Position numbers and translations under genes: made by a program
Notes under the pieces: generated by a model
The model's database searches: none
What the model was told of the DNA's origin: nothing
What the model saw: the letters and a program-made list of their open reading frames with translations, nothing else
Part shown: piece by piece, positions 137 through 20,872 of the stretch
How the letters are laid out: every line of letters begins with the position of its first letter
Numbering within the stretch: position 1 is the first letter of the stretch
Virus record (IMG/VR): IMGVR_UViG_3300049919_000100
Location: 1-21,722 of that record
Direction: 5' to 3' (one strand)
DNA from: a virus
DNA: 21,722 nucleotides

Positions 137-144
137 TTTTGATA
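137..144 (+). promoter_or_regulatory. TTTTGATA motif before terminase operon
   Basis: Exact TTTTGATA, ending 21 nt before the ATG at 166. This is one of the longer spacings, and here the gap contains GGAG (157-160) at a usable Shine-Dalgarno distance. Interpreted as a late promoter core; transcription has not been shown. Confidence 0.6.
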
Positions 145-165
145 CCTCCAGAATTTGGAGATTAA

Positions 166-582
166 ATGAGGAAGAAAAAAGAAACATTCACAATCAAAGA
201 TCCTACTGATACAGAGGAAATTGATCAATCCTACAAACTTCATCGTGCCCGCAAAATGTCGAATGATGCTGACATGAAGGGGGAACAGAAGGAGATTGAA
301 AGACTCAAGAAGGAGAAGCTGAAGGCAAATCTAATCCCGCTAAAGGAAGCTCAAGAAATCTTTGTTTCAGTTGGAGCGCAAACAAAGCTCAGGTTCAACC
401 GGCTGATTGCAGAATTGCCTCCCAAGTTGGAAGGGTTGAACGGATTGGAAATGATCCCGATTCTAAGAGAGAAGTTTGATGAGATCTTTGCAGACCTTTA
501 TACAACCTTCTCAGTCAAAGAAGTTGATGCTGATTCAATCACCATTCAGAAGGATGATGAGAGGGAGGATGAAGAAGGATGA
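166..582 (+). CDS. Terminase small subunit, Nu1-like
   Basis: The predicted product is 138 aa, highly charged, with a helical stretch at about 38-55 rich in Glu, Lys and Leu, followed by a region (about 56-110) resembling the C-terminal part of phage Nu1-type DNA-packaging proteins (leucine-rich helices around paired prolines, LPPKLEGL). The small terminase subunit recognises phage DNA and hands it to the large subunit. The assignment rests mainly on position: it lies directly upstream of a GpA-type large terminase and overlaps it by 4 nt (ATGA), so the two are probably translationally coupled. No clear N-terminal winged helix, as found in lambda Nu1, is visible, so DNA recognition may differ. 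It has the best-placed Shine-Dalgarno-like box in the window (GGAG, 157-160). Confidence 0.6.
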   Translation: MRKKKETFTIKDPTDTEEIDQSYKLHRARKMSNDADMKGEQKEIERLKKEKLKANLIPLKEAQEIFVSVGAQTKLRFNRLIAELPPKLEGLNGLEMIPILREKFDEIFADLYTTFSVKEVDADSITIQKDDEREDEEG

Positions 583-2273
583 GCAAGGGAGATCAATTGA
601 GATTGGCCTTTGCAAACGCTGTAAGACCTCAAGACAGGCTTTCAATTGTTGATTGGGCTGCAAAGCATGTAAGGACTCAAAGAAGCTCCAGAAGCCAGAA
701 TGCAGACCTTAGACAGACTCCTTGGTTGATCGATCCTCTAGAGAAGGTGGTTGGCAATGAAGCTTCTGAAGTGGTGCTGTTGGCTCCCACTGGATCAGGC
801 AAATCAACCATTCTGGAAATTGCGGGAACCTACATCATTGCTGAAAATCCTGCTCCTACTCAGTTTGCCGTTGGATCTGATGCAGATGCACAACAATTCT
901 TTGAGACAGGTTTGAAGCCAGCTTTGAAGAACTGCAAGCTGATTGATGGGTTTTGGCCTGCTTCCAAGAACGCAATCAAGAAGGACATTATACAATTTAC
1001 TCACATGAATCTTTGGGTTGAAGGTGCAAATACTTCTAACCTACAGATGAAGTCTGTAACAAATCAGTTTCTTGATGAGTGCTGGATGATGAAGCAGGGA
1101 TTGATTAGAGAAGCGAAAGCACGCTTGCACAATCGATTTGGAGCTAAATGCACAATGGTATCACAAGCGGGTTTTGTGGGGGATGATCTAGATGAAGCAT
1201 GGAATGAATGCTACAAGTTTGAATACGCTTACAAGTGCCCTAAATGTGGTGAGTTTCATCCTTATGATTTCAAGAATCTAAAATGGACTAAGGAAGAAGT
1301 GGAAGGTCAAGTAATATGGGAAACCATTGATGCACATTATGAATGCCCTTGTGGCCATATATTCGAAGACAAGCAGGCAACCAGACGCGAAATGAGCGAA
1401 TCGGGGAAGTATGTGGAAGGAGATTCTACAAACCCGATCATGGGGCATTACGGGTATCACTACACGGCTTTAAATGTGTGGTGGATCACTTGGAAGGAAC
1501 TTGTGATTGAATTCCTCAAAGCCAATTCAGCAGCCAAGAAAGGGAATCTAAACTTCCTGAAACAGTTCAATCAAAAGAGACTGGCTAGACCTTGGGATGA
1601 GATGGAGCATTTGGAAGACAAGCCTGTTTCACTTTCAGATTATAAAATTGCAGATTCTAAGAAGTGGGATGTTACCATTCTTTCAGCAGACGTTCAAAAG
1701 GTTGATATATGGTGGCAGATTAGAACTTGGTCAAGATCAGGAGAAAGCCGATTGCTAAACTTTGGAAAAGTAGTCTCATTCTCAGACCTAGCCAGAATCG
1801 TAGAACAGAACGAAATACAAAGTAACTGTGTCTTCATTGACTCTGCTTATAGAGTTGAAGAAGTTAAGAGCTTCATTGCAAAGCACAAGTTTCTAGGATT
1901 GAACGGAAGACCGGAATCTAGCTACAGCATCAAGAACAAGAAGACGAACAAGACTTTCAGAAGGTTGTATGATGCTCCAAAGAACTTTCAGACAGCTAAC
2001 GGGAATGCTTGCATCACTCATTACTCTTCCATGGGGATCAAAGATATTCTCTTTATTCTGAAATCAGGAGGGGGAGCAGTGTGGGAAGTTCCCATTGATA
2101 TTTGTGAAGACTACAAGATTCAGATCAATTCTGAAGTGAAGGTCATTGGCAAAGATGGAAAGCTTACCTATAAGAAGAGGGGAGACAACAACCACGCAAC
2201 CGATACAGAAGCAATGTCCCTAGTGGGGGCAATGATGCATAGGTGTTACCCTGAAATCCTCCCTGATGACTAA
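579..2273 (+). CDS. Terminase large subunit, GpA family
   Basis: The 564-aa product is the ATP-driven packaging motor and DNA-cutting enzyme. Residues about 70-77 form a Walker A loop (APTGSGKST), and FLDE near 164-167 is the Walker B with its catalytic Glu. A zinc-ribbon-like pair follows (CPKCG near 220 and CPCG near 256), a usual insertion in the GpA family. The C-terminal nuclease half shows the expected acidic residues in beta-strand settings: ILSADV (Asp about 371), CVFIDSA (Asp about 421) and HATDTEA (Asp about 542). Its length matches the GpA family (about 550-650 aa). It starts inside the stop of the small subunit gene (ATGA), so coupled translation is likely. No frameshift or missing motif is seen. 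Confidence 0.95.
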   Translation: MSKGDQLRLAFANAVRPQDRLSIVDWAAKHVRTQRSSRSQNADLRQTPWLIDPLEKVVGNEASEVVLLAPTGSGKSTILEIAGTYIIAENPAPTQFAVGSDADAQQFFETGLKPALKNCKLIDGFWPASKNAIKKDIIQFTHMNLWVEGANTSNLQMKSVTNQFLDECWMMKQGLIREAKARLHNRFGAKCTMVSQAGFVGDDLDEAWNECYKFEYAYKCPKCGEFHPYDFKNLKWTKEEVEGQVIWETIDAHYECPCGHIFEDKQATRREMSESGKYVEGDSTNPIMGHYGYHYTALNVWWITWKELVIEFLKANSAAKKGNLNFLKQFNQKRLARPWDEMEHLEDKPVSLSDYKIADSKKWDVTILSADVQKVDIWWQIRTWSRSGESRLLNFGKVVSFSDLARIVEQNEIQSNCVFIDSAYRVEEVKSFIAKHKFLGLNGRPESSYSIKNKKTNKTFRRLYDAPKNFQTANGNACITHYSSMGIKDILFILKSGGGAVWEVPIDICEDYKIQINSEVKVIGKDGKLTYKKRGDNNHATDTEAMSLVGAMMHRCYPEILPDD

Positions 2274-2277
2274 AATC

Positions 2278-2285
2278 TTTTGATA
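2278..2285 (+). promoter_or_regulatory. TTTTGATA motif, 13-nt spacing
   Basis: Exact motif 4 nt after the terminase stop codon. It ends 13 nt before the ATG at 2299, which is preceded by T. No Shine-Dalgarno lies in the 13-nt gap. It heads the connector-portal-protease-scaffold operon. Confidence 0.65.
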
Positions 2286-2298
2286 CTCTCAGAAGTTT

Positions 2299-2565: not shown

Positions 2566-2567
2566 TC

Positions 2568-4002: not shown

Positions 4003-4818
4003 ATGAAACTATTTTACACAACTGAAGACGCATTAGAAACCTACAAGGCAAACCGCACAAAAGCGGAATCCGGGTTTGATCTATCATTCTTCGTAAACAA
4101 AAGAAAAGAGGCTAAACTAGAAAATGGGATTGGCCATGTTTTCGTTTACGGTATGTTGATCTTTGATGCTGCTCCAATCGACAAGGCATTAGGCAATACA
4201 GATTACAAGGACGTTGAAGCCGACATTCAATCAATGATCGATCAGGGAGCTAAAGCAATCCTCTTGCATGTCAATTCCGGGGGAGGCTACGTTTTAGGAT
4301 GTATGGAGACTTCCGAATTCATTCAGAATCTTCCTGTTCCTGTAGTCACTCACGTTGATGGAATCTGCTGCTCTGCTGCTTACAAGCTTGCATCAGGATC
4401 AACCTACATCATAGCAACCAAGTCTTCCCAAGTGGGGAACATTGGAACCATTGCCGTTTATGCTGATACTTCAGAAATGATGCAGAGAATCGGAGTCCAA
4501 TATATTGCCTTCTACAATGAAGGAGCAATTTACAAGAGTATTGGGCACACTGATTCCCTTACCCAAGAACAGATCGATTACCTGCAAGCAGGGATCAACA
4601 AAGCGGGGGAAGAATTCCAGAACCACGTTAAAGCCAATAGAAGCGTCTCTGAAGACGTTTTCACGGCTGCTTGGTATAATGGAGCGCAAGGAGTCGAAGC
4701 AGGGCTTGTGGATGAAATTGGAGGGGTAGAAATGGCAATCCAAAGAACCCTAGAACTGATTGAAGTAGTTCCGAACGAATCAGAGGAAATTGATACACCC
4801 GATAATATAGAAGTATGA
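4003..4818 (+). CDS. Prohead protease, S49 (SppA/gpC-like)
   Basis: The 271-aa product is a serine peptidase of the ClpP-crotonase fold, the prohead maturation protease. Visible family features are VNSGGGY at about 90-96 (oxyanion region), GICCSAAY at about 120-127 with Ser124 as likely nucleophile, the SSQVGNIGTIAVY segment at about 141-153 and a Lys near 178 (IYKSIG) as likely dyad base. WYNGAQGVEAGLVDEIGG at about 225-242 matches the usual C-terminal segment of this family. In lambda the scaffold is made from the 3' part of the protease gene; here it is a separate gene that starts 4 nt inside the stop of this one (ATGA). The protease is expected to cut the scaffold and itself inside the prohead. 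Confidence 0.92.
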   Translation: MKLFYTTEDALETYKANRTKAESGFDLSFFVNKRKEAKLENGIGHVFVYGMLIFDAAPIDKALGNTDYKDVEADIQSMIDQGAKAILLHVNSGGGYVLGCMETSEFIQNLPVPVVTHVDGICCSAAYKLASGSTYIIATKSSQVGNIGTIAVYADTSEMMQRIGVQYIAFYNEGAIYKSIGHTDSLTQEQIDYLQAGINKAGEEFQNHVKANRSVSEDVFTAAWYNGAQGVEAGLVDEIGGVEMAIQRTLELIEVVPNESEEIDTPDNIEV

Positions 4819-5295: not shown

Positions 5296-5332
5296 AAACC
5301 CTGTTGGAGCAATCCAACAGGGTTTCTTTTTG
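5296..5332 (+). terminator. Intrinsic terminator after scaffold gene
   Basis: A 13-bp perfect stem (AAACCCTGTTGGA at 5296-5308 with TCCAACAGGGTTT at 5313-5325), closed by a GCAA tetraloop and followed by C and five T. It separates the connector-to-scaffold operon from the HNH and capsid genes. Confidence 0.9.
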
Positions 5333-5372: not shown

Positions 5373-6053
5373 GTGGAAGACATTATAACAAAAGTATGCA
5401 CCAAGTGTGAAATAGAGAAACCGATTGATGAATTCGGAAAAGCCAAGAATATCAAGGACGGGCTGAATACCCGATGCTTTACTTGCAGAAGAGAAATATG
5501 CCTTGAACTGTATTATCGAAATAAGGAGAGATACAGCAAAGTTGCGGCGGAAAGAAGGCTTGCCAATATCGAAAAGGCTAAGAGCAAGGAAGAGAATTAC
5601 CGTATAAAGAACAAGGCATGGATTAAGGAGAAGTATGAAGCAAAGAAGGGTGTCTATAATGCCAACCGAGCTAGGAAATACAAAGAGAATAGCGTCACTC
5701 GCTCAATGCGGTTAGCAAGCAACCGACAATACTTGCAATCCAAAAGTGAAAACGTGCATCCGTTACATGATGTAAACCTTGAACGAGAGCTATATAATCA
5801 AGCATACGATTTGGGCAAGCAAACAGGAAATCGATATGATGTGGATCACATTTTTCCTTTATCAAAAGGTGGTCCCCATTGGCATCTAAACATGCAGGTA
5901 ATACCCAAGAAGATTAATGCGGCTAAAAGTGGATCGCTTAAATTCAAGCATCCTGAAATCACACATTGGACTGAACTTCCTGAAAAGGTTTTAGGTGCTA
6001 TTGAGCCTTCCAAGCTAGCAAAAGCATATGAGCAATTAGAGCAAGAAACGTAA
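5373..6053 (+). CDS. HNH homing endonuclease (zinc-finger N-terminus)
   Basis: This free-standing 226-aa HNH endonuclease probably cuts phage DNA lacking the gene and spreads by repair. An N-terminal CxxC...CxxC module (C9, C12, C35, C38) is shared in style with the HNH gene at 16391-17059. A basic helical linker follows (about 45-120). The HNH core is near 150-190: YDVDHIFPLSKGG with the DH pair, then HLNMQVIP and KKINAAKSG. The start is GTG at 5373, directly preceded by an in-frame ATG-TGA (5367-5372), so no upstream in-frame start is possible. It lies between the scaffold terminator and the capsid promoter motif without breaking either neighbour. Its TAA stop is 2 nt before the motif. Confidence 0.85.
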   Translation: MEDIITKVCTKCEIEKPIDEFGKAKNIKDGLNTRCFTCRREICLELYYRNKERYSKVAAERRLANIEKAKSKEENYRIKNKAWIKEKYEAKKGVYNANRARKYKENSVTRSMRLASNRQYLQSKSENVHPLHDVNLERELYNQAYDLGKQTGNRYDVDHIFPLSKGGPHWHLNMQVIPKKINAAKSGSLKFKHPEITHWTELPEKVLGAIEPSKLAKAYEQLEQET

Positions 6054-6055: not shown

Positions 6056-6068
6056 TTTTGATATAAAT
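6056..6068 (+). promoter_or_regulatory. Extended motif TTTTGATATAAAT, capsid gene
   Basis: The 8-mer (6056-6063) extends to TTTTGATATAAAT, the same 13 nt as before the putative tail tube gene (8590). Similarity continues downstream (AATT then ATAG in both). It ends 65 nt before the capsid ATG, leaving an A/C-rich leader with no Shine-Dalgarno. Probably the promoter of the most abundant virion protein. Confidence 0.65.
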
Positions 6069-7004: not shown

Positions 7005-7046
7005 AAAACCCTCATTGGATTAGGTTCCGATGAGGGTTTTCCTTTT
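7005..7046 (+). terminator. Intrinsic terminator after capsid gene
   Basis: AAAACCCTCAT (7005-7015) pairs with ATGAGGGTTTT (7030-7040). Four further inner pairs, one of them a G-T wobble, leave a 6-nt loop at 7020-7025, and a CCTTTT tract follows. It isolates the capsid unit, and the next TTTTGATA motif begins 6 nt after it. Confidence 0.88.
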
Positions 7047-7051: not shown

Positions 7052-7059
7052 TTTTGATA
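7052..7059 (+). promoter_or_regulatory. TTTTGATA motif, 13-nt spacing
   Basis: Exact motif just after the capsid terminator, ending 13 nt before the ATG at 7073. The 24 nt from motif to start codon differ by one base from those at 14754-14777. A motif placed right behind a terminator supports a promoter role. Confidence 0.68.
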
Positions 7060-8122: not shown

Positions 8123-8130
8123 TTTTGATA
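8123..8130 (+). promoter_or_regulatory. TTTTGATA motif, 13-nt spacing
   Basis: Exact motif directly after the previous stop (TAAG-TTTTGATA), 13 nt before a T-ATG start at 8144. No Shine-Dalgarno lies in the gap. Confidence 0.65.
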
Positions 8131-8589: not shown

Positions 8590-8602
8590 TTTTGATATAA
8601 AT
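8590..8602 (+). promoter_or_regulatory. Extended motif TTTTGATATAAAT, tail tube gene
   Basis: Same 13-nt extended motif as before the capsid gene. The 8-mer ends 68 nt before the ATG at 8666, with an A/C-rich leader lacking a Shine-Dalgarno. The leader contains a 13-codon ORF starting at 8623 whose TAA ends 1 nt before the main start. Confidence 0.65.
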
Positions 8603-8665
8603 CTAATTATAGAGATTCGCGGATGAACATCATCCAAAAACAACAATTCAAACATTTAATATAAT

Positions 8666-9070: not shown

Positions 9071-9108
9071 GAAACCCGGTCGATTTATTCAACCGGGTTT
9101 CTTTTTTT
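9071..9108 (+). terminator. Terminator merging into next promoter motif
   Basis: GAAACCCGGT (9071-9080) pairs with ACCGGGTTTC (9092-9101) around an 11-nt loop and is followed by seven T (9102-9108). The last four T are also the first four bases of the next TTTTGATA motif, so terminator and promoter signal share bases. Confidence 0.85.
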
Positions 9109-9112
9109 GATA
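9105..9112 (+). promoter_or_regulatory. TTTTGATA motif fused to terminator
   Basis: Exact motif built from the T-tract of the preceding terminator. It ends 16 nt before the ATG at 9129. The gap ends in a purine run (GGGAG) that abuts the start codon, too close for a normal Shine-Dalgarno. Confidence 0.65.
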
Positions 9113-10089: not shown

Positions 10090-10097
10090 TTTTGATA
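10090..10097 (+). promoter_or_regulatory. TTTTGATA motif, 13-nt spacing
   Basis: Exact motif directly after the T-frame stop (TAAG-TTTTGATA), 13 nt before the T-ATG start of the tape measure at 10111. Confidence 0.65.
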
Positions 10098-11663: not shown

Positions 11664-11671
11664 TTTTGATA
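11664..11671 (+). promoter_or_regulatory. TTTTGATA motif, 16-nt spacing
   Basis: Exact motif 2 nt after the tape measure stop. The 14 nt TAATATTTTGATAT are identical to those at 6051-6064. It ends 16 nt before the ATG at 11688. An earlier ATG at 11680 is followed at once by TAG. Confidence 0.63.
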
Positions 11672-11687: not shown

Positions 11688-12491
11688 ATGAGTAGAGATG
11701 CAACTAAATTTGGTCTGCCTAGAGGAAGGCTTACATGGAATCCAGACTTCCAAGCAACATTAAGCGATAAAAATCTTTGGACTGGTTCCGTTACATTCAC
11801 TTGTAATATAGCGGATGTAATCGCCCTAAAGCCTGAGCTTAAATCACCCTGCCAAGAACCCGGATTTGAATTCATGGGTCTTGTAGGGTTGGAAGTGAAG
11901 AACAATGAAGGGGACACTGCTACAGTAAACTGTAGGTATTCAGGAACCGTCTCACCAGATTTCGGGATTGATGATCCAGAGGAAGAAACTCCAAAGACTT
12001 CATCAATGGCAATAGGTGTTTCCCTTGAACCGATTACAAGCCATAAGCAATTCAAGGATCTTACACAAGCGGAATGGACTATTGTATCACTATTCCAGAA
12101 GGGGCTTTATGTAGCAGGTAAGATTACAAACGGGGTTGTTGAAACTCTACTACCTAATACTTATGATTCAAAGCTCGGAATTGTAACATTGGAAGGTGAT
12201 AAACTCAAGAAGCTGATTGGCTACTTGAACAAAGGTGTTGATCGCTACTTGGCTGCTCATCAGGTCTATAGAGTCAATTACACTTCTAATAATCGTCCAA
12301 CTGCTGCCGAATTGAACAAAGTTGGATATGTCACAAATGCTCCCGGTGCCCCTGTTGTGAATGATCGCGATTGGCTATACATGGGAGTGAACTACTCAGA
12401 AAGCGGTGATGTATATGACATTACGCAAGAATGGGAACTTTCGGGTCCGGGTAAAAACGATCCATACCTATACAAAGAACCAGAAGAATAA
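11688..12491 (+). CDS. Unrecognised distal tail protein
   Basis: The 267-aa product is not assigned to a family. It follows the tape measure, where distal tail or tail-tip proteins lie. It is beta-rich in the N-terminal half (SVTFTCNIADVIALKP, GLVGLEVKNNEGDTATVNCRY) and ends in an aromatic, Asp-rich part (DWLYMGVNYSESGDVYDITQ). There is no signal peptide or membrane segment. It heads an operon with the next two genes (2-nt gap, then a 4-nt overlap). A distal-tail adaptor replacing lambda gpM/gpL is the likeliest role, on position only. Confidence 0.6.
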   Translation: MSRDATKFGLPRGRLTWNPDFQATLSDKNLWTGSVTFTCNIADVIALKPELKSPCQEPGFEFMGLVGLEVKNNEGDTATVNCRYSGTVSPDFGIDDPEEETPKTSSMAIGVSLEPITSHKQFKDLTQAEWTIVSLFQKGLYVAGKITNGVVETLLPNTYDSKLGIVTLEGDKLKKLIGYLNKGVDRYLAAHQVYRVNYTSNNRPTAAELNKVGYVTNAPGAPVVNDRDWLYMGVNYSESGDVYDITQEWELSGPGKNDPYLYKEPEE

Positions 12492-12493
12492 TT

Positions 12494-14092
12494 ATGATCC
12501 CGAATCCTAGAACAGTGAAGATCGGAGATCCTTTGAAAGTCTCTGATTACAATCAGCTAATATCAGGTCTAAAGACTCTCTCTAGAGATCCTTACGCCAA
12601 GGGTTCAACTCTAGCTTCCGCTGGAAGACAGAGTAAGCCTTTTGAAGTGATGGAGATTCTGGATAGTGAAGCAGTTGGGGGAAGTGACCCTAGTGCAGTC
12701 TATTTCAAAATCAAAGCAGGTTACTTGGTCAATGGTGATGATTATTATCATTGCTACGGGCCAGAAGAAACTAGCAAAGCATACAAGCCTTTGGACAATT
12801 ATCCGATTTTCAAACTCTTCAAGCCAACTGAAGGCAGCCCGACATGGCTTGCAGTCAATAGAAAATCTTGTGAACTTGTGTGGGTTGACACAGGGGAATA
12901 TCTTGCTGATCATACCTATCTTACAAGATTTGAAGTAAGAGGATCGGATGAAGAACCCAAGAATCAAACCAATCTCTTCAACCACTTCAACCTTCACCCT
13001 CAGAACATTCTTCTAGGACCGAAAGAACAGTTTAGAGTAACAGTTTGGCCCAATGATGGGGATTCCCCTACGCTTTCAGCAGGATCAGCCCCTACAAGCT
13101 GCAAACTTACGATCATTCCGGGTTACATCAAGAATTGGCTGCCAATGACAACTGAGGATCAAGTTTATACTCTTCATTCAGTTGAGAAATCTGGAGAGGG
13201 TCCGCTAGAAGGTTTTCCTACACCGATATTCGAAGAAATCGAAGACAATACTGTTGTCTATGTGAAGTTTGCCACTGATGACAAAGGAAAGGTTACAAGT
13301 GCTGAAATCTTCACTGAAGTAGGTTCTGAAGATCCTAAAGTCTTCAAGGAATCGACTCACTATCAACCAAAACCTGTTGCCACTCTAGGTGAATACTATT
13401 GGCCTATTGCAAGAATCAAGAGATTGGAATTCGTCGCAGTCGGGGGAGGCAAGTATTATCAGTTCTATGCACATCAACTTTGGGTTGGAGAAATTGACTT
13501 TCTTCCCAACTTGGCTGAGATTGAAAATATCGGAGAAAAAAGAGAATGGTATAAGGGTCTTAGAGATGCTGATACAGTTTATGAATTCAGAACAGCAGAG
13601 CAAATAGAAGGAAGAGGGGAAGCGATAATCAAGCCCCTTTCTGCTGCTACTCCCGGTGATTCTGAAGCAGTTCCTCCAATACCTGCAACACAAGCGGAGA
13701 ACGAAGGGGAAACGATCAAATGGAAGCGCATTGCTGAAAGAGGATCATCCCCACAAATTCATGTCACAACTGAAGATGATGGGTCTGTTGTTGAAATCAA
13801 AGGTAATGATCAAACTGAGAGTTGGACAGATGTTAAAAGATTTAGCATATCGTATGATGACGGTCTGATTACCGGTTTTACTCCGATTGATCCCGAACCA
13901 CTTTCGGGAGGCAATTTGAATCTTACAATTCGTAAGTGGGAAGAAGACACAGTAACAGGCGTTAGCACAGAAACAGGATCACCATCGGTGCTTTATTGGC
14001 GCAATGGTCTGTTTATTGGGGAAGCTGATCCGGGTGGTGCCCCTGCTGCTCTAATTGAAAAAGAAGCCGCATGGTTGAACCCTGTAGGATGA
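12494..14092 (+). CDS. Putative tail tip / fibre structural protein
   Basis: The 532-aa product is not recognised. It is beta-rich, with many Pro, Gly and aromatic residues, low in Cys, and looks like an extended surface protein. Segments such as YFKIKAGYLVNGDDYYHCYG, TVVYVKFATDDKGKVTSAEIF and the C-terminal SPSVLYWRNGLFIGEADPGG suggest repeated beta-sandwich or fibre domains. The latter pattern (wrNGlyig) is common at the C-terminus of phage receptor-contact proteins. It lies second in the distal-tail operon and ends with ATGA overlapping a glycosyltransferase-like gene. It is a candidate for the host-contact protein in place of lambda gpJ. The start at 12494 follows the previous stop by 2 nt without a Shine-Dalgarno. 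Confidence 0.6.
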   Translation: MIPNPRTVKIGDPLKVSDYNQLISGLKTLSRDPYAKGSTLASAGRQSKPFEVMEILDSEAVGGSDPSAVYFKIKAGYLVNGDDYYHCYGPEETSKAYKPLDNYPIFKLFKPTEGSPTWLAVNRKSCELVWVDTGEYLADHTYLTRFEVRGSDEEPKNQTNLFNHFNLHPQNILLGPKEQFRVTVWPNDGDSPTLSAGSAPTSCKLTIIPGYIKNWLPMTTEDQVYTLHSVEKSGEGPLEGFPTPIFEEIEDNTVVYVKFATDDKGKVTSAEIFTEVGSEDPKVFKESTHYQPKPVATLGEYYWPIARIKRLEFVAVGGGKYYQFYAHQLWVGEIDFLPNLAEIENIGEKREWYKGLRDADTVYEFRTAEQIEGRGEAIIKPLSAATPGDSEAVPPIPATQAENEGETIKWKRIAERGSSPQIHVTTEDDGSVVEIKGNDQTESWTDVKRFSISYDDGLITGFTPIDPEPLSGGNLNLTIRKWEEDTVTGVSTETGSPSVLYWRNGLFIGEADPGGAPAALIEKEAAWLNPVG

Positions 14093-14739
14093 TCCCTCTT
14101 ATTAGATGCGGTTTTGGAATTGGTAATCGTGTAACAATGATTGCCAATGCCCTTTCACGAAATGAAAGCATTCAATTTGTGTGGAGGGTGAACCCGATTC
14201 TTCCTCTAGAACATTGGGAGGTATTCCCCAACGGGATCAATGGTGTTGAATTTGTCGATAGTTCCCTAAAAGGGTTCTCTACAAGATGGGAGCGTAAAGT
14301 TCCCGGAGAATCGTGGGAGGGAGCAGGAGACAGGGAGAAGGCAAACACGGCTTACAGCACCATTATAGAGGCAATGGCAGGCAAGGAGAGAGAGGGAATA
14401 GACCTTGCGATTGTTGCACGCTTCTGGAGGTTTCCTGAAGCCGATCCTGTAGAGCTTGCAGAACTTGCTTCAAGGTATGGTTCACAAGCATTCATTCTAG
14501 CGGATTCCCGCCGTGAAGAGATTGCTACAGAACTAAACAAGCGGGGAATGGCTGCAATCCTTCCTAATGGCGGGGAAATGTCTTGTGATCTAGACCGATC
14601 CCCTGAAAGCACTCTAGCTTATTTGAGTGACTGGAAAACCGCAATCATGGCAGAAACAGTTATTACCCATCAAGCTGATACAAGCGTGATACATCCTGCT
14701 AAAGCAAGAGGGGCAAGAATCATTAGATCCTCAATCTAA
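14089..14739 (+). CDS. Probable glycosyltransferase (fucosyltransferase-like)
   Basis: A 216-aa protein with features of GT-B enzymes of the alpha-1,6- and O-fucosyltransferase group. These are an N-terminal phosphate-binding type loop (IRCGFGIGNRVTMIANALS, residues about 5-23), a central strand-turn AFILADSRREEIATELNKRGM (about 144-164, matching the usual 'fvatDsxxvxxxl' segment), and a C-terminal segment MAETVITHQADTSVIHPAKARGA like the usual 'silGxxsSxFS.xA' region, but without the full Ser motif. It is shorter than typical members (about 280-350 aa), so it could be a trimmed form. Likely substrates are a phage tail protein or a host surface sugar. The start is placed at the ATG in the ATGA overlap; an in-frame ATG at 14071 lies inside the upstream gene. 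The enzyme class is a moderately supported inference. Confidence 0.55.
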   Translation: MIPLIRCGFGIGNRVTMIANALSRNESIQFVWRVNPILPLEHWEVFPNGINGVEFVDSSLKGFSTRWERKVPGESWEGAGDREKANTAYSTIIEAMAGKEREGIDLAIVARFWRFPEADPVELAELASRYGSQAFILADSRREEIATELNKRGMAAILPNGGEMSCDLDRSPESTLAYLSDWKTAIMAETVITHQADTSVIHPAKARGARIIRSSI

Positions 14740-14753
14740 AGGATGCAGTCAAG

Positions 14754-14761
14754 TTTTGATA
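14754..14761 (+). promoter_or_regulatory. TTTTGATA motif, 13-nt spacing
   Basis: Exact motif, 13 nt before the T-ATG at 14775. From motif to start codon it differs by one base from 7052-7075, although the two downstream genes are unrelated. Confidence 0.68.
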
Positions 14762-14774
14762 TTCCCGCTTCAGT

Positions 14775-15755
14775 ATGCGATTGTATATTGACACAGTAAG
14801 CCAATCTTTTGTTACAGATCCAGCTTTTAGAGCACCCGTTGATTCAGCTACCTTCAAGAGAGGTGATGCAGCACAGGTAAACATTCAGTTTTCTAACGGT
14901 TCAACCGTTCTAAGTGCTGTTTCAGGAAGAGATTTAAAGTTTGGAATCAAGGCTTCTGGCGATTATGACGGGGATTATATTGTCTTCACTGAAGATTACA
15001 CCATAAACGGGAACGATTACGTTCTTAATCCTTCGTTCAATACTGAAGCTTTGAATCTTCTGTTGGGGCATGATCCCCTTTCCGGGAATGTGATTCCTGA
15101 TGTTGCTGCTGTTGATGCTATGCTTGAAGTCTCATGGTCAGATGATTCTGGCACTTCTTGGTATTCCACAAACACAATCACCGCAACCATCAACAATGAT
15201 GTAAACAAGGGATCAGAAGGAACTCCTATAGAGTTGCCTGATGCTCTTGATTGGCTACAAGCTAACGGAATTGTATATGAGACTGCAATTACTTCATTAA
15301 CCGGGGGAACATCAACCTATCTTGATGCACTTGTTACAACTGGTATTCCTGTAGGTTCTTTATATGCCGTAAAAGGTTCGGGAAACAATCTAAGCATTTA
15401 TCGTATGGCGGATTCGACAAGCACAACATCTGTGCCACTCAGAATTAGGCCATTGGACTACAACAACCCGGATAATAAAAAAGTGTGGTTCCTTGCTGCT
15501 CCCCAAGTCGCTAGTTTGAGATCTTATGGTCAAGTGTTGGCAACCGCTTTAGCAATTGAAAATTCAAGCGGGAATGCAATTACATTATATGGGGATGAGG
15601 TTACGGCTGAAACAGATTTACAATTACCTGATGTAAGCGGACACATTCCTTCAGTTCCACCTTACGCGGATTTAACTGCTGCAAATGCTGCTTTGGATTC
15701 CGGGGATTTCTTTTGGGATACAACTTTAAAGAAATTGAGACAGGCAACAGCATAA
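14775..15755 (+). CDS. Tail fibre-like structural protein
   Basis: A 326-aa protein with an N-terminal domain of the kind seen at the head of phage fibre or baseplate proteins: FKRGDAAQVNIQFSNGSTVLSAVSGRDLKFGIKASG (about 28-63) resembles the 'kr GDt..i.v.f...g.v.dLtg..v.f.iK' pattern of BppU-like N-termini. A Tyr/Asp/Gly-rich middle part follows. The C-terminal end (PYADLTAANAALDSGDFFWDTTLKKLRQATA) resembles trimeric fibre ends. It probably forms a side fibre or a baseplate-attached protein. It is first in an operon with the holin candidate and the DUF1353 gene. The module at 20880 shows the same N-terminal theme, so the phage may carry two fibre sets. Confidence 0.6.
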   Translation: MRLYIDTVSQSFVTDPAFRAPVDSATFKRGDAAQVNIQFSNGSTVLSAVSGRDLKFGIKASGDYDGDYIVFTEDYTINGNDYVLNPSFNTEALNLLLGHDPLSGNVIPDVAAVDAMLEVSWSDDSGTSWYSTNTITATINNDVNKGSEGTPIELPDALDWLQANGIVYETAITSLTGGTSTYLDALVTTGIPVGSLYAVKGSGNNLSIYRMADSTSTTSVPLRIRPLDYNNPDNKKVWFLAAPQVASLRSYGQVLATALAIENSSGNAITLYGDEVTAETDLQLPDVSGHIPSVPPYADLTAANAALDSGDFFWDTTLKKLRQATA

Positions 15756-15768
15756 TCTCTGAATACCT

Positions 15769-16020
15769 ATGAGCAATTTCTTCTGTCTAATGGCACAAAA
15801 GGTCTTGGGTATATTCCTAGATTATCAGGAGTTCACTTCCGCGAAACTTTGGTTATATGCGGCTGCTCCATTATCTGCTTGGGGATTGTCTCATGCTGAA
15901 ATCAATGAATACCTTCAGACGGGATCAATGGGGATCGGAATCCTTGTGGGTCTGTTTGCTTTGGTTCCTTTGTGTATAGCACTCTTCAAGAAGTGCTTCA
16001 AGAAGTGCTTTAAGAAATGA
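15769..16020 (+). CDS. Holin candidate
   Basis: An 83-aa protein with one clear membrane segment at about 53-73 (GIGILVGLFALVPLCIALF) and a weaker hydrophobic helix at about 25-41 (KLWLYAAAPLSAWGL), ending in a basic tail with a Phe-Lys-Lys-Cys repeat (FKKCFKKCFKK). Two membrane helices and a cationic C-terminus fit a class II-type holin, which permeabilises the inner membrane and lets the lysin out. The position just upstream of the lysin region supports this. The tail is encoded by a 12-bp tandem repeat (15984-16007), a possible site of length change. Its TGA overlaps the next start. Confidence 0.55.
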   Translation: MSNFFCLMAQKVLGIFLDYQEFTSAKLWLYAAAPLSAWGLSHAEINEYLQTGSMGIGILVGLFALVPLCIALFKKCFKKCFKK

Positions 16021-16394
16021 ATGAGTGCTTTCTAGACAAGATCATTCTAGAAGATGCTGGTATGGTTGGAGATTCCCGGTTGTTTAGGCTAGGGAAGGAA
16101 TTCAGGGTGAAGACTTCCAAAGGGTTGTTTTCAGCCCCAAAAGGTTTCATTACAGATGGTGCTTCTTCCCCTAGGTGGAGTCATTCTATAGTTGGACCTT
16201 TTGGTGATGCATTTGGAGCAGCCTTGGTGCATGATTACCTTTATTCGAAGGATTGTCCTTATAATGTTACCAGAAAAGAAGCAGATGATATATTTTTGGA
16301 GCTTCTTAAAGCTTCTGGTGTTTCCTTCATCAAACGACAAACGATCTATTTGGCAGTCCGTTCTTGTGGTTGGATGTTCTGGAGAAAAGACTAA
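16017..16394 (+). CDS. DUF1353 family protein
   Basis: The 125-aa product matches the DUF1353 pattern: FSAPKGFITDGASSPRWSHSIVGPFG followed by AAALVHDYLYS, then KEADDIFLELLKASGVSFIKRQTIYLAVRSCGW. The conserved H-D pair (VHDYLY) and the D-G-A-S loop suggest an enzyme, possibly a small hydrolase. Members are common in phage lysis or tail-end regions, but the activity is unknown. It overlaps the holin candidate by 4 nt (ATGA). Its TAA (16392-16394) overlaps the stop of the antisense HNH gene, so that gene abuts it tail to tail. Confidence 0.85.
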   Translation: MNECFLDKIILEDAGMVGDSRLFRLGKEFRVKTSKGLFSAPKGFITDGASSPRWSHSIVGPFGDAFGAALVHDYLYSKDCPYNVTRKEADDIFLELLKASGVSFIKRQTIYLAVRSCGWMFWRKD

Positions 16395-17059
16395 GCTACA
16401 TGCTTCCAAGTCTTTCGTTCTAGGATGCATTGAATTGTTCCTTGTGAAACCTGATACTTCTCTGCAAGCTTGGCTCTTGATACCACTCTTGGAATGTATT
16501 CAGATCGAATCTGTATCACTTCTATCTCAGTGAGCTTGCTTCCGCTGAATTCCTCTCCCTTTGGTGCTACCTTAAGTCCCGCCGCTAATGCATGTTGCGC
16601 GTTCTCTTGCGCTGTTACCCATTCAAGATTTGAAAGAATGTTATTTTGTTTGTTTCCATCAAGGTGATTCACTTGGGGAAGATTGAAAGGGTTTGGAATG
16701 AAAGCTTCAGCAAGCAAGCGGTGGAAAGTAGTATAACGGTGGGATTCTTTTGATTGGAGTTTCACATCCTGATACCTTCCGGGCATTGTTTTAGGCTTGA
16801 GAAATCTCTGGGTATTGACATTCCATAATCTCCCATCTTTGAATATAAGATATTGCTCAAAATCTTTTACTTGTTTCCATTCGCCTGTTTGTTTCACAAA
16901 GTCTGTAGCCTCCGCGCATTTTTCAGGTGTAAGCTTTTTCTCGTAGTAGTTATTGCAGCTTTTGCATTTGGTTGCCTTTTTATCCTTTTTTCTAATGTGA
17001 TTGTGAAATTGATTAAGTGCTTTCGGTTGTTTGCATTTAGAGCATGTTTTTGTTTCCAT
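16391..17059 (-). CDS. HNH endonuclease with NUMOD4 (antisense)
   Basis: A 222-aa homing endonuclease on the opposite strand. From the N-terminus it shows a CxxC...CxxC zinc module (C6, C9, C32, C35), a NUMOD4-like DNA-binding segment (GEWKQVKDFEQYLIFKDGRLW, about 57-77), an HNH_3-type core (TFHRLLAEAFIPNP...QVNHLDGNKQNNILSNLEWVT, about 107-145) and a C-terminal helix-turn-helix (RAKLAEKYQVSQGTIQCILERKTW). It is free-standing, lies between DUF1353 and lysin, and its stop overlaps the DUF1353 stop. This insertion separates the lysin from the holin operon. No TTTTGATA motif lies upstream of its start, so it is probably transcribed separately. Confidence 0.88.
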   Translation of the reverse strand: METKTCSKCKQPKALNQFHNHIRKKDKKATKCKSCNNYYEKKLTPEKCAEATDFVKQTGEWKQVKDFEQYLIFKDGRLWNVNTQRFLKPKTMPGRYQDVKLQSKESHRYTTFHRLLAEAFIPNPFNLPQVNHLDGNKQNNILSNLEWVTAQENAQHALAAGLKVAPKGEEFSGSKLTEIEVIQIRSEYIPRVVSRAKLAEKYQVSQGTIQCILERKTWKHVA

Positions 17060-17147
17060 AATAATATTTAGCTACACCCTCTGTTATTTTGGTGTCGATA
17101 CATATTTACATGGAAGCTTAGGAATGCAAATGTCGCAAGGCTAGGGT

Positions 17148-17155
17148 TATTGATA
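17148..17155 (+). promoter_or_regulatory. Variant motif TATTGATA before lysin
   Basis: TATTGATA (one mismatch to TTTTGATA) ends exactly 13 nt before the T-ATG at 17169, matching the spacing class of the exact motifs. The spacing is the reason it is counted as the same element. Confidence 0.55.
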
Positions 17156-17168
17156 TTTCCTGAATTGT

Positions 17169-17645
17169 ATGCTCAGGGACAAAATTCTAGAATTGGCTAA
17201 AGGTGAAATTGGAGTTGAAGAAGTTGATGGAACCAATTGCGGCAAACGTGTAAACGAGTATAAGAGTGCAACTTGGCTAGATCATACTAAACCTTGGCCA
17301 TGGTGTGCGGGTTTCATCTGTTGGCTATTCAGAGAGGCAATGAAGGGAAAAGAATATACCTTCAAAAGACCGGAAACTGCTGGAGCGTATGATTTTGAAA
17401 ACTGGTGTAGGAAACAGGATTATTCTGTTGTTCTCAAGAAACCCCATGAGAATGATATTGAAGCGGGGGACATTGTGATTTTCTCCTTCTCTCACATTGG
17501 TATTGCAACCTCTGGAGTCAAGAACGGGTATATCACCACGATTGAAGGTAACTCTAATCTAGAAGGTTCTAGAGAAGGGGGAGCGGTGGTTAATCAAAGA
17601 CGCAAGGTTTCTTCCATCAGATCTAGAATTAGAGTGATGGTCTGA
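17169..17645 (+). CDS. Endolysin, CHAP-like cysteine peptidase
   Basis: A 158-aa lysin with CHAP/NlpC-type catalytic layout. Cys46 sits in PWPWCAGFICWLFREA, His109 in FSFSHIGIATSG, and ITTIEGNSN at about 122-130 supplies the third polar residue; these enzymes cleave peptidoglycan peptide bonds. The N-terminal ILELAKGEIGVEEVDGTNCGKRVNEY is the usual helix-loop lead-in. It has no signal peptide or separate cell-wall-binding domain, so it would need the holin. It ends IRSRIRVMV just 1 nt before an antisense HNH gene, and a diverged copy of its last 27 codons lies at 18287-18371. It has its own motif with 13-nt spacing. Confidence 0.85.
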   Translation: MLRDKILELAKGEIGVEEVDGTNCGKRVNEYKSATWLDHTKPWPWCAGFICWLFREAMKGKEYTFKRPETAGAYDFENWCRKQDYSVVLKKPHENDIEAGDIVIFSFSHIGIATSGVKNGYITTIEGNSNLEGSREGGAVVNQRRKVSSIRSRIRVMV

Positions 17646-17646
17646 T

Positions 17647-18228
17647 TTAGTTTCTTCCATGGTTTTCGTGGTAAAGGTCTCCTTGTGCTTTTATTCTTGC
17701 TGAAATAGCTTCTTCTTTTGTGAGGTAAGATCCGACATGCTTTTTACCAAGTTGAGCAATCCATTTAGAGTTCTTCAAGTAAACACCGACATGACCGCTA
17801 GTGTTTGTTTTGTAGATGCATTTGTTTTGCATATTTGCAGTCATCGACACACTTCTGAGATTTGAGAATATATTATTGATTCGATTTCCATCGATATGGT
17901 CTATGTATTCGGCGTCTTCACCTGTTACAAATTTCCAAATCACCCGATGTGCTAATACGGATCTTCTGAATAGGTTGCCATAGTAATAACCATCTTGATG
18001 TTTTGCTGTTAATGCTTCTTTGCCTGCAAAATTGATATTAAATGTATTCATTTGTGAAGATGCTAGATATCGACCATTATCTTTGAATAGGGAAAGATCT
18101 CTAGGTTTCCAGAATAGTTTTCCCGTTTCTGGATTATAATCTAGAACTTGTTGCAGGACTTCTTGGGTTGGCAATTCAAGTCTGTTTACATTGGTGATTG
18201 TGGAATTAAGTAATTTATACATCAACAA
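17647..18228 (-). CDS. HNH endonuclease with AP2-like domain (antisense)
   Basis: A 193-aa homing endonuclease, a third and different architecture. The HNH_3-type core is near 90-135 (LAHRVIWKFVTGEDAEYIDHIDGNRINNIFSNLRSVSM). An AP2-like DNA-binding domain follows (SGHVGVYLKNSKWIAQLGKKHVGSYLTKEEAISARI, about 143-178). It is free-standing and antisense, ending 1 nt from the lysin stop. Upstream of its start, on its own strand, is TATTGATA (18251-18258) at 22 nt. The orphan second lysin 3' end lies just beyond its 5' side. The simplest view is an endonuclease gene that entered the lysin locus and left the displaced gene end behind. Confidence 0.88.
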   Translation of the reverse strand: MLMYKLLNSTITNVNRLELPTQEVLQQVLDYNPETGKLFWKPRDLSLFKDNGRYLASSQMNTFNINFAGKEALTAKHQDGYYYGNLFRRSVLAHRVIWKFVTGEDAEYIDHIDGNRINNIFSNLRSVSMTANMQNKCIYKTNTSGHVGVYLKNSKWIAQLGKKHVGSYLTKEEAISARIKAQGDLYHENHGRN

Positions 18229-18250
18229 TACTTACCATGTCAGGTGCATT

Positions 18251-18258
18251 TATCAATA
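18251..18258 (-). promoter_or_regulatory. Possible TATTGATA motif for antisense HNH
   Basis: On the - strand TATTGATA lies 22 nt before the HNH start at 18228, close to the 21-nt spacing seen twice on the + strand. A single variant match could be chance. Confidence 0.3.
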
Positions 18259-18268
18259 GGGTCCAATA

Positions 18269-18371
18269 CAGCACAAATACAGATGGAGAAGGTTCTAGAG
18301 AAGGTGGAGCAGTCCTAGCTAAGAAAAGAAAAGTTTCCTCCATTAGATCCAGAATCAGAATCACGGTCTGA
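18269..18371 (+). pseudogene. Orphan second copy of lysin 3' end
   Basis: Bases 18287-18371 align without gaps to the last 85 nt of the lysin gene (17561-17645), with 65 of 85 identical by hand count, including the TGA. The translation shares EGSREGGAV and RKVSSIRSRIR, and 21 of 27 residues match. Just upstream it reads TNTDG, as other lysins of this type do before this point. Most differences fall at silent positions outside one short variable patch, so the copy evolved under constraint before being orphaned. The homology seems to begin near 18269 and the catalytic part is absent. It is a remnant, not a gene. Confidence 0.85.
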
Positions 18372-18496
18372 AAGGGGAATCCCTGATGCCCTTCAAAGCC
18401 TCCAGAATGCCCCTAGAATCGAAGCAGGGAATTCCCGCTTGATCACGTAGCCGGGAAGGGGAGAATCCCCGCTGGAAAGCATCCTCTCCCCGGTTT
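18372..18496. other. Spacer with short palindromes before tRNA
   Basis: No gene is seen. This G/C-richer stretch holds the palindrome GGGAATTCCC and several GGGGA/TCCCC runs that could pair (for example GGGGAGA with TCTCCCC just before the tRNA). Its composition differs from the late genes around it, so it may belong to the attachment region or to host-derived DNA. Confidence 0.4.
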
Positions 18497-18568
18497 GTCC
18501 CCGTAGTTCAATGGATAGAACTCAAAACTCCTAATTTTGAAATGCAGGTTCGATTCCTGCCGGGGACA
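18497..18568 (+). tRNA. tRNA-Arg (anticodon CCU)
   Basis: The full cloverleaf can be drawn by hand. The acceptor stem is GTCCCCG with CGGGGAC (7 bp). The D stem is GTTC/GAAC, and the anticodon stem is CAAAA/TTTTG around loop CTCCTAA, giving anticodon CCT for AGG codons. The T arm is GCAGG, TTCGATT, CCTGC. The discriminator is A and no CCA is encoded. A T7 run follows. It lies directly before the attP-like repeats and the integrase, a common site of phage integration, and the phage genes use AGG and AGA often. Confidence 0.93.
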
Positions 18569-18580
18569 CCCCCTTTTTTT

Positions 18581-18607
18581 GCCACTAATCCCCGCTCCCC
18601 TAGTGGC
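18581..18607. repeat. Inverted GCCACTA / TAGTGGC pair
   Basis: GCCACTA (18581-18587) and TAGTGGC (18601-18607) form an inverted pair 13 nt apart, starting 12 nt after the tRNA. TAGTGGCA recurs at 18646, 18833 and 18888. These are candidate integrase-binding boxes. Confidence 0.6.
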
Positions 18608-18645
18608 AGGCTGAAACCCCGGATTTTTCAGGGTAGGTGCAAAGG

Positions 18646-18896
18646 TAGTGGCAACGGTTTTGGAAAACGTTGAAAAAACAACGGGTTACAAACAATCGTC
18701 TAGAGCTTCCTAATTCCTTGAAGGTCTATTGATGTTAGAGCGTTTCATTGAGAACTCAACGGGTTACAGTTGGCTTGCATTGGGTTCCATTGGCTAGAAT
18801 TGGCCATTATCGGGGGAGACTAGGGGCAAATTTAGTGGCAAATGCCCCTAGAGCAGCCTAGGCTTCTGGCGACAGAGGAATCCGCCCTAGTGGCAA
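18646..18896 (+). repeat. attP-like repeat zone with phased TTGG boxes
   Basis: A gene-free stretch of about 350 nt (18569-18919) between tRNA and integrase holds layered repeats. TAGTGGCAA occurs at 18646, 18833 and 18888. A 12-bp direct repeat, CAACGGGTTACA, lies at 18679-18690 and 18757-18768. TTGG boxes start at 18770, 18780, 18790 and 18800, exactly 10 bp apart. The inverted pair CTAGGGGCA (18820-18828) and TGCCCCTAG (18843-18851) encloses a TAGTGGCAA. This looks like the integrase and accessory-factor binding array of a phage attachment site, and perhaps the integrase operator. Confidence 0.65.
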
Positions 18897-18919
18897 AACC
18901 AGAAACCAGAGAAAATCCG

Positions 18920-20092
18920 ATGAACCTGAAAACCAGAAACGGGAAGTGGTATGTGCGAAAGCTCCACGATGGGAAGCAGCAAGAAGCCAGTCTGCAAACC
19001 GCTTCCAAGGTGGTTGCAACCACGCGAGCCAATCGCTTCCTGACTACCCTTGAAGAAACGGGATCATGGCAAGTGGCTGTTACAGAACTACGGGGCAAAG
19101 AAATCATCAAGAAAGGGGAGTCTCCTACGATGGAGCAGTTCAAAGAATTGTATAAGCAATTTGTTTCACAATCCCCAAAACCGATTAGACCTAATACTTT
19201 CGCAACTAATATAAGTGCATTGAAGCGATTGATGGAAACCCTGAAAGTGAAAACAGTTTCAGAAATCAATACTGATAGAATCAAATTCACTCCAGAGAAT
19301 CGGAAGACCATCATTTCAGAAATCAAACATTCTAAAGCTATGTTTAAACCTGCTTGCTTGCGCTTCTATAACAAGCAGGGAGTGAAGGTTTCAAATCCGT
19401 TCACTCAAATTGAATTGGGGGGAATGGTCAGAAATCCTTATACCCCTCTTTCATCTGAAAAAAGAAAAGCAATTTGGGATGAAGCTAGAAAGCTTCCCCC
19501 TGATGAAAGCTTGTGTATCCTTATAGCCCTTGGAGCAGGTTTAAGAAAAAATGAAATCGACAAGGCAAGAGTGAGTTGGATTTCCTTCATGGATGATCAC
19601 GCAATTTTTACAGTGAAATCAGAAGATGATTTTATTCCCAAGTCTTCCGCTAATAGAAACATTCCGATTTCAAAAGACCTAGCTGAAGAGATTCTGGCAA
19701 TTCGGGAAACCATGAATCCTAATGAGAATGATCCTTACATTCTTGCGGGGGATGGAAGAGGGGCAACAAGGAAGGATAAAACTTTCAGAAGGATCAGCAC
19801 TTGGCTAAAATCAAAAGGTGTTACTTTTACAAACCCTCTCCATTCCCTTAGAAAAGAATTCGGCTCAAATGTATTCACCGCGCATGGTGTAGGAGTCGCT
19901 TCCGTTCTCCTTGGTCATGCTGACATCAAGCTTACAATGGACACTTACGCGGGTTTGACAGCTTCCCCCGTCATTGACATTGGGGGGATGATTAACGGGA
20001 AGCTTGATCCTCTAGAAGCTCTTGCCAAGTCGCAGGGAATATCCTTGGAAGCTCTCAAGGATTTTCTTGCCAAGCAGAAGCAGGCTTCTTAG
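18920..20092 (+). CDS. Tyrosine integrase
   Basis: A site-specific recombinase of about 390 aa (416 if begun at the ATG at 18842). From the 18842 start, the catalytic residues are Arg235 (GAGLRKNEID), Lys259 (FTVKSED), His334 and Arg337 (LHSLRKEFG), His359 (LLGHADIK) and Tyr369 (MDTYAG), all present. NLKTRNGKWYVRKLHDGKQQEASL at its N-terminus looks like an arm-binding domain, then a core-binding domain (about 95-180). 18920 is preferred because the first 26 codons from 18842 overlap repeat boxes and an inverted repeat and have no domain character. It integrates or excises the phage, most likely at the adjacent tRNA gene. There is no TTTTGATA motif, so its control differs from the late genes. 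Confidence 0.92.
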   Translation: MNLKTRNGKWYVRKLHDGKQQEASLQTASKVVATTRANRFLTTLEETGSWQVAVTELRGKEIIKKGESPTMEQFKELYKQFVSQSPKPIRPNTFATNISALKRLMETLKVKTVSEINTDRIKFTPENRKTIISEIKHSKAMFKPACLRFYNKQGVKVSNPFTQIELGGMVRNPYTPLSSEKRKAIWDEARKLPPDESLCILIALGAGLRKNEIDKARVSWISFMDDHAIFTVKSEDDFIPKSSANRNIPISKDLAEEILAIRETMNPNENDPYILAGDGRGATRKDKTFRRISTWLKSKGVTFTNPLHSLRKEFGSNVFTAHGVGVASVLLGHADIKLTMDTYAGLTASPVIDIGGMINGKLDPLEALAKSQGISLEALKDFLAKQKQAS

Positions 20093-20105
20093 AGCTTCCC
20101 CCGCT

Positions 20106-20684
20106 ATGGCAAAAACAAGAGAACTACAGCCGCAATCAAACGTTGTAACCCCTGATGCTCCAGAAGGAGAGGAATCGGATTCTACCTCTGAAACTTCCCC
20201 GACACCTTCCCAGAAGGTGAAGAGGTATTCAGTTGAAGAGAAGAAAGAGATCCTTGATTTCATCGATGCGCACGGAAGAGGTGGACAAGAAGCAGCCAAG
20301 AAGAAATTTGGCTGTTCCATCCCCGCAATTGGGCTTTGGAGAAAAGAAGCCAAGAAAGCAGCCGGGGGAGAAACAGCCGAAAGCAAGCCTAGCACTCCAT
20401 CCGCCAAGTCTTCCGCTTCTTCTCCCAAGGTGAACATGGAATCTGTTTACAAGTTTCTAGGAGGGAGAGGCTTCAAGTTCTCCCGAGTCACTGAATACGG
20501 TCCTACAGGATCAACTACCAAGGACGTTGGAGATCCTAAGCTAGAAGCTTTGAACTTGAAGGAGCATACAGGATCAATCAACCAAGTAGAAGCAGCAGCT
20601 ACTTCCGTTGTTTCCACTGAAAATAAGATCGTGGTTGCAATGCCCTTGGAAACCCTCCTTGAACTGATGAAGATCAAGCCTTAA
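20106..20684 (+). CDS. Helix-turn-helix protein next to integrase
   Basis: A 192-aa protein with three parts. An acidic Ser/Thr/Pro-rich N-terminus covers about 1-36. A transposase-type (IS3-like) helix-turn-helix covers about 38-78 (RYSVEEKKEILDFIDAHGRGGQEAAKKKFGCSIPAIGLWRKEAKK). A flexible linker leads to a C-terminal half (VYKFLGGRGFKFSRVTEYGP...IVVAMPLETLLELMKIKP) that is not recognised. It starts 13 nt after the integrase stop and probably shares its transcript. It ends before a terminator. Its place suggests a recombination directionality factor or a regulator of lysogeny; both are inference. An in-frame ATG at 20022 lies inside the integrase gene and is not used here. Confidence 0.6.
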   Translation: MAKTRELQPQSNVVTPDAPEGEESDSTSETSPTPSQKVKRYSVEEKKEILDFIDAHGRGGQEAAKKKFGCSIPAIGLWRKEAKKAAGGETAESKPSTPSAKSSASSPKVNMESVYKFLGGRGFKFSRVTEYGPTGSTTKDVGDPKLEALNLKEHTGSINQVEAAATSVVSTENKIVVAMPLETLLELMKIKP

Positions 20685-20710
20685 CGGATTGCCGTTTAAA
20701 CCCCTCAATC

Positions 20711-20740
20711 AGCCTTCAGGAGCAATCCTGAAGGTTTTTT
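20711..20740 (+). terminator. Intrinsic terminator after integrase operon
   Basis: CCTTCAGGA (20713-20721) pairs with TCCTGAAGG (20726-20734) around a GCAA tetraloop, with two weaker outer pairs, and is followed by T6. The GCAA loop is the same as in the terminator at 5296. Confidence 0.9.
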
Positions 20741-20831
20741 AGTGTCCCTACACCAGAAACTTCTAGAAATCGATTCTGGAGGCATTCTAGAGCAAAAGAA
20801 AGGGCATTGAAGATCAAGCCTCATTCCTGCT

Positions 20832-20872
20832 TAGAACAGGGAAGGGGAGATTTTGATATTGTCCCTGTTCTA
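20832..20872 (+). promoter_or_regulatory. 11-bp inverted repeat around motif
   Basis: TAGAACAGGGA (20832-20842) and TCCCTGTTCTA (20862-20872) are perfect inverted repeats. The 19-nt loop holds the TTTTGATA motif near its centre. It could act as an operator for a dimeric repressor, or as an RNA hairpin that blocks read-through transcripts from making the fibre protein. Confidence 0.6.
20851..20858 (+). promoter_or_regulatory. TTTTGATA motif, 21-nt spacing
   Basis: Exact motif inside the inverted repeat above. It ends 21 nt before the ATG at 20880, with a purine run (AAGAGG) abutting the start. Confidence 0.62.

Follow-up and report, generated by a model that had tools for sequence, protein, structure and literature searches.

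A start-associated TTGAYA element, probable core of a dispersed late promoter in temperate Verrucomicrobiota phages

The 21.7-kb virus record IMGVR_UViG_3300049919_000100 (21,722 nucleotides (nt), analysed at its full length and called the window here) encodes terminase, portal, S49 protease, capsid, tail and endolysin proteins, a tRNA-Arg and an integrase, and carries a recurrent 8-mer, TTTTGATA, ahead of many of its genes. Judged by comparison with related phages, this 8-mer is a local variant of a wider element, TTGAYA. We consider it likely that the element forms the core of a dispersed late promoter in a group of temperate Verrucomicrobiota phages, controlled by a small helix-turn-helix (HTH) protein, E3, with transcription starting at or just before the start codon. 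The most informative feature of the element is its one-sided 13-nt spacing to the start codon.

Exact TTTTGATA is present eleven times on the + strand of the window, each copy in non-coding DNA before a start codon, exactly as the initial annotation had listed them; a twelfth copy, on the − strand (5860–5867), lies within a gene. Non-coding DNA makes up 6.9% of the window by the simple open reading frame (ORF) calls that served as gene calls in our scripts, and the previous stop codon is often just 2–6 nt ahead of a + strand copy. Dinucleotide shuffles gave a mean of 1.79 copies on both strands (standard deviation 1.3, maximum 6), with 12 or more in 0 of 100 shuffles; the single-strand expectation is about 0.8–0.9 copies vs the 11 seen, in line with the earlier estimate of about one. 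The distance from the end of the 8-mer to the ATG is 13 nt at genes 2299, 7073, 8144, 10111 and 14775, 16 nt at genes 9129 and 11688, and 21 nt at genes 166 and 20880, with longer intervals at the major capsid gene (6129; 65 nt) and at gene 8666 (68 nt). This constant 13-nt spacing had been passed over in the initial annotation. Two degenerate copies also precede genes, TATTGATA at 17148 and AATTGATA at 4788. Most genes that lack the motif touch or overlap the gene ahead of them, as had already been noted, and the HNH gene (5373), the integrase gene (18842) and gene 20106 have no copy either. The copies and the neighbouring terminators are as follows.

137–144, + strand: TTTTGATA, 21 nt before the terminase small subunit gene (166)
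2278–2285, + strand: TTTTGATA, 13 nt before an 88-aa gene (2299); orthologous sites TTTTGACA-N13-ATG in L009 (3209) and L010 (3000)
4788–4795, + strand: degenerate copy AATTGATA, 19 nt before gene 4815; overlaps the end of the protease gene
5296–5325, + strand: hairpin and T tail of an intrinsic terminator, ahead of both the HNH gene and the putative capsid promoter
6056–6063, + strand: TTTTGATA, 65 nt before the major capsid gene (6129), whose leader is A-rich
7008–7046, + strand: intrinsic terminator (−20.3 kcal/mol), after the capsid gene and directly before the motif at 7052
7052–7059, + strand: TTTTGATA, 13 nt before gene 7073; ortholog in L009 (10619) has TTGACA-N13-ATG
8123–8130, + strand: TTTTGATA, 13 nt before gene 8144
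8590–8597, + strand: TTTTGATA, 68 nt before gene 8666, which by its position probably encodes the major tail protein
9071–9106, + strand: intrinsic terminator (−18.8 kcal/mol), after gene 8666; its T tract enters the motif at 9105
9105–9112, + strand: TTTTGATA, 16 nt before gene 9129
10090–10097, + strand: TTTTGATA, 13 nt before the tape-measure gene (10111)
11664–11671, + strand: TTTTGATA, 16 nt before gene 11688
14754–14761, + strand: TTTTGATA, 13 nt before gene 14775
17148–17155, + strand: degenerate copy TATTGATA, 13 nt before the endolysin gene (17169)
20851–20858, + strand: TTTTGATA, 21 nt before a BppU-like tail gene (ATG at 20880)

A 13-codon open frame, MNIIQKQQFKHLI (8623–8664), lies in the leader of gene 8666; its stop is one base ahead of the ATG of that gene, and it may encode a leader peptide.

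Relatives of the window phage include L009 and L010, with portals 74% identical, the phages G003, G004 and G006, and a prophage carried by Haloferula sp. BvORR071, which belongs to the Verrucomicrobiota; P8625, an isolated phage of a Puniceicoccales host, is a distant relative (portal 30%). Given this kinship with the Haloferula prophage and with P8625, the host group of the window phage is very probably Verrucomicrobiota. The terminase large subunit TerL, used alone as a query in IMG/VR, gave no match. L009 and L010 have no TTTTGATA before their genes and carry TTTTGACA at the orthologous place, likewise 13 nt before the ATG. Across the relatives the conserved core is TTGAYA, read as TTGACA in the relatives and TTGATA in the window, with variable bases upstream of it; the base directly before the core is usually T or A in the close relatives of the window phage and G in GC-rich phages. 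Conservation of the exact 8-mer is thus rejected, since the relatives carry TTGACA. An IMG/VR scan with an extended pattern, TTTTGATANNNNNGCNTNANTATG, returned 30 matches, mostly in AT-rich contigs and with no clear one-strand excess of TTTTGATA.

The 7.8-Mb Haloferula genome holds 29 matches to TTTGACAN{10,20}ATG, 3 of them in the prophage of about 30 kb, and TTGAYA occurs in 0 of 170 upstream regions of Haloferula host genes; TTGAYA is therefore a phage signal that this host does not use. Sites of P8625 were kept out of the pooled set described below, because TTGACA there stands about 30 nt before some ATGs together with a GTATCC/GGATAC dyad. This arrangement (L043, e.g. 5412, 10736 and 15558) looks like a separate operator-promoter system.

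Spacing and base context were examined in two sets of phages, the first composed mostly of portal and major capsid protein (MCP) relatives plus L096 and G010, the second of phages found with E3 only; start-associated sites were counted as distinct after removal of near-identical ones. Pooled, the sets contain 86 distinct coding-strand sites vs 12 scattered on the opposite strand. Exactly 13 nt separate the core from the start codon at 31 of the 86, one site falls below 13 nt, and most others stand at 14–16 nt. The first set contributes 57 forward sites (19 at 13 nt, 6 at 14, 2 at 15, 14 at 16 and 1 below 13) vs 6 scattered reverse sites, and the second 29 (12 at exactly 13 nt, none below) vs 6, so that the floor at 13 nt is repeated there. 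Such a floor fits a transcription start site which the ATG cannot precede. Bases after the motif are also biased, with enrichment of C at position 7 (p=1e-7), T at 13 (p=1e-6) and T at 10 (p=4e-6), C also at +5, and A or G at +14 in the family consensus. A pyrimidine stands before the ATG at 26 of 31 sites of the 13-nt class vs 116 of 213 starts lacking the motif (p=0.0017), as expected of an initiator in which this A is +1; the preference is weaker in the second set alone (9 of 12), and +14 was chosen as the start site only after the first set had been inspected.

The hexamer of the relatives is identical to the sigma-70 −35 consensus, which raises the reading that the element is the −35 box of ordinary host promoters. 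This is very improbable and already contradicted: −10 hexamers at spacers of 16–18 nt downstream of the motif are at background level (3–4 of 60 sites with at least four matches), the resulting start would fall inside the gene, the window has no excess of sigma-70-like sites, and its own motif reads TTGATA. About equally improbable is a promoter for a phage-encoded single-subunit RNA polymerase of the T7 type. Recognition upstream of the start and the lack of a −10 element are features of such promoters too, and TATAG occurs at some of the sites; against this, no protein of RNA polymerase size is among the ORFs listed for the Haloferula prophage, G003 and G004. A search for PF00940 in the relatives gave no match, and neither did its control, so this search is uninformative.

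Further evidence for a transcription signal comes from the terminators. In the window, strong hairpins and their T tracts come to an end shortly ahead of the motif (7008–7046 and 9071–9106), as they do before L009 7212 and L010 7005, and several motifs start within about 10 nt of a terminator. Directly downstream of a terminator a new promoter is expected, and just 20–40 nt or so are left there before the next start codon. These observations bear on a different reading, in which the element acts in the mRNA as a start-associated translation-initiation signal, recognized by the ribosome or another factor and not by RNA polymerase. The tight coupling to start codons speaks for it, as does the lack of Shine-Dalgarno (SD) sequences at motif-bearing starts. 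SD-scarce translation has been reported in some Verrucomicrobia (PMC10783764), which makes SD-less starts plausible for the hosts and lends this reading some support. The motif itself, as the initial annotation rightly held, is not complementary to CCUCC, and its 13-nt gap exceeds the 5–10 nt or so that an SD sequence needs. The one-sided spacing with its long tail is not SD-like either, and leaders of 65–68 nt at two structural genes ill fit a ribosome signal. Translationally coupled genes without the motif, its absence from host genes, the nearby terminators and its association with a DNA-binding HTH protein all argue in the same direction, and we regard a translation signal as unlikely. Open-access PMC literature on Verrucomicrobia phage promoters and leaderless mRNAs yielded nothing on the motif itself.

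The protein in question, E3, is an HTH protein of about 125 aa. In relatives whose early region is available, E3 and E4 are the last genes of the early operon, with the terminase genes directly following, and E3 has this place at the end of the early cluster in G003, G004, G006, G010, L096 and the Haloferula prophage. The same six copies were used to build the E3 profile, and their own matches to it are by construction. The predicted fold is a helix-helix-HTH (block pLDDT 84–96, residues 31–100), whose best neighbours, sigma region 4, LuxR-type and TFIIB-type domains, are weak (best Foldseek E-value 0.15, Z about 5). For the G006 copy there is a GerE match at 3e-6. The isoelectric point is 4.5–6.7 in five of six copies and 9.6 in one. 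E3-positive records with late DNA carry the motif, and the MCP/portal relatives that are E3-negative (G009, P8625, L055–L060) have no motif site. In G010 the structural genes are mostly unrelated (only an HK97-gp10-like gene matches well), yet E3 is present together with four motif sites on the coding strand and none on the opposite one. In a more independent test, E3 alone was searched against 388 Verrucomicrobiota genomes and matched in 15, including the one with the known Haloferula prophage; further prophages were recovered in this way, and TTGACA is the commonest or joint commonest hexamer 13–16 nt before starts in most loci found with E3 as bait. From this co-occurrence E3 is the likely factor behind the element, which it may bind, and it is predicted to be present in the window phage.

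Taken together, these data suggest a mechanism in which host RNA polymerase and a phage DNA-binding factor, likely E3, encoded immediately before the terminase genes, would start RNA within 14 nt downstream of TTGAYA. In the 13-nt class the preferred start would be the A of the ATG, so that the mRNAs have no leader or almost none, and the major capsid and probable major tail genes would yield mRNAs with A-rich leaders of 65–68 nt. The late-promoter idea of the initial annotation thus gains from strand and late-gene specificity, association with starts, TTGAYA in relatives, absence from the host, terminators and the HTH protein, and loses the exact 8-mer. Its suggestion of a phage-altered RNA polymerase or phage sigma factor was a fair guess: neither a complete sigma factor nor a phage RNA polymerase turned up, and what emerged is a small HTH candidate with weak likeness to sigma region 4 and LuxR folds.

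A promoter variant differing in start site and factor is possible, if doubtful. Here TTGAYA would be a −10-type element used by a phage sigma-like factor in a geometry like that of T4 late promoters, with transcription starting 7–8 nt after the core and a leader of about 6 nt. In the GC-rich phages TTGAYA is the AT-rich, meltable part, and a pyrimidine-purine step, C7 followed by A8, is frequent. This geometry alone does not account for the sharp floor and mode at 13 nt or for the pyrimidine that precedes the ATG at sites of the 13-nt class, and a gp55-like sigma factor (region 2) had no match among the early-operon proteins of the relatives, the early region of the window phage itself lying outside the record. 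A T4-like position at −10 is one of two possible geometries; the spacing and the surrounding bases speak rather for a start at the ATG or close to it.

Several points weigh against E3-controlled initiation at the start codon. The sequence leaves the start site ambiguous, as C7-A8 could serve as an alternative initiator, making TTGAYA −10-like with a 6-nt leader. In phages of 60% GC the interval between motif and ATG is GC-rich and hence harder to melt, which argues against a start exactly at the ATG. The modelled fold of E3 matches known domains too weakly for a family name, and E3 may belong to some other HTH family. L129 and L139 have E3-like matches and no forward motif, and L126 and L127 have one motif each, so the link between E3 and the motif is not universal; it also partly reflects the shared ancestry of the phages. 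The window is a fragment without the E3 gene, its early region lying outside.

Among known systems, T4 late promoters consist of a TATAAATA element centred at −10 and depend on gp55, gp33 and gp45. The element resembles them as a short single element repeated before many late genes, with a specificity that is probably phage-encoded, and differs in its consensus (TTGAYA, not TATAAATA), in its fixed spacing to the ATG and in that no gp55-like protein was found. E3 in turn has the size and place of the RinA/Ltr late regulators of Gram-positive phages, which have about 130 aa and are encoded at the end of the early cluster directly upstream of terminase (PMC13123087). No sequence similarity to them was detected in E3, and most E3 copies are acidic, not basic. 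Scans of Pfam, PHROGs and NCBIfam likewise placed no Ltr, RinA or ArpU family among the E3 matches, which decides little, as the Ltr families share no similarity with RinA (PMC13123087). A described Ltr acts at one late promoter (PMC13123087), vs at least 13 candidate sites in 21 kb here. By analogy, the element and E3 may work like T4 dispersed late promoters with a regulator placed like RinA/Ltr, and the pair is demonstrably a member of neither. The start-associated sequence (SAS) of cluster K mycobacteriophages is a short asymmetric repeat that keeps mostly to one orientation and stands at a fixed place ahead of some of the genes, with 11–19 copies per genome; it reads GGGATAGGAGCCC, with AGGAG in ribosome-binding position next to the start (PMC3203893). 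The likeness is in layout only: TTGAYA has a different sequence and a more upstream position, lacks complementarity to CCUCC and stands behind a terminator in places.

Other features of the window and its relatives concern gene content. An intact tRNA-Arg (CCT; 18496–18571), at most 82% identical to tRNAs in Verrucomicrobiota genomes, is followed by a tyrosine integrase gene (18842–20092), both between the lysis gene and the BppU-like tail gene. The sequence encoding the endolysin C-terminus (EGSREGGAV...RKVSSIRSRIR) occurs twice within 17169–18371, flanking an HNH gene on the − strand (17647–18228), an arrangement that looks as if the duplicated 3′ end had been inserted along with the HNH gene. 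After the integrase, 20106–20684 encodes a 192-aa protein whose transposase-like match is weak; its C-terminal part recurs in a G004 protein whose N-terminus differs (zinc-ribbon-like). The G004 contig (L065, L066) is a 26.6-kb temperate phage, apparently near-complete, whose ORF list shows no obvious genes for replication. The G006 contig has a cluster of four tRNA genes (Phe, Asn, Trp and Met; L067 9356–9710), and the G010 contig, within its structural region (11859–18395; L098/L099), has genes that by eye from their translations resemble those for glycosyltransferase, radical-SAM and methyltransferase proteins.

For Verrucomicrobiota, a phylum with very few studied phages, the analysis yields a rule for late gene control at the sequence level, TTGAYA-N13..16-ATG, names E3 as the candidate regulator, and predicts late mRNAs that would be leaderless or nearly so. 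Rule and protein may both be used to find and annotate prophages of this phylum. More tentatively, a lone E3 resembling sigma region 4 might direct host RNA polymerase to TTGACA without a −10 element and start transcription on the A of the AUG, forming a leaderless late regulon in many Verrucomicrobiota phages and a previously undescribed class of promoter. If E3 does work without a −10 element, this would be a new way of programming bacterial RNA polymerase.
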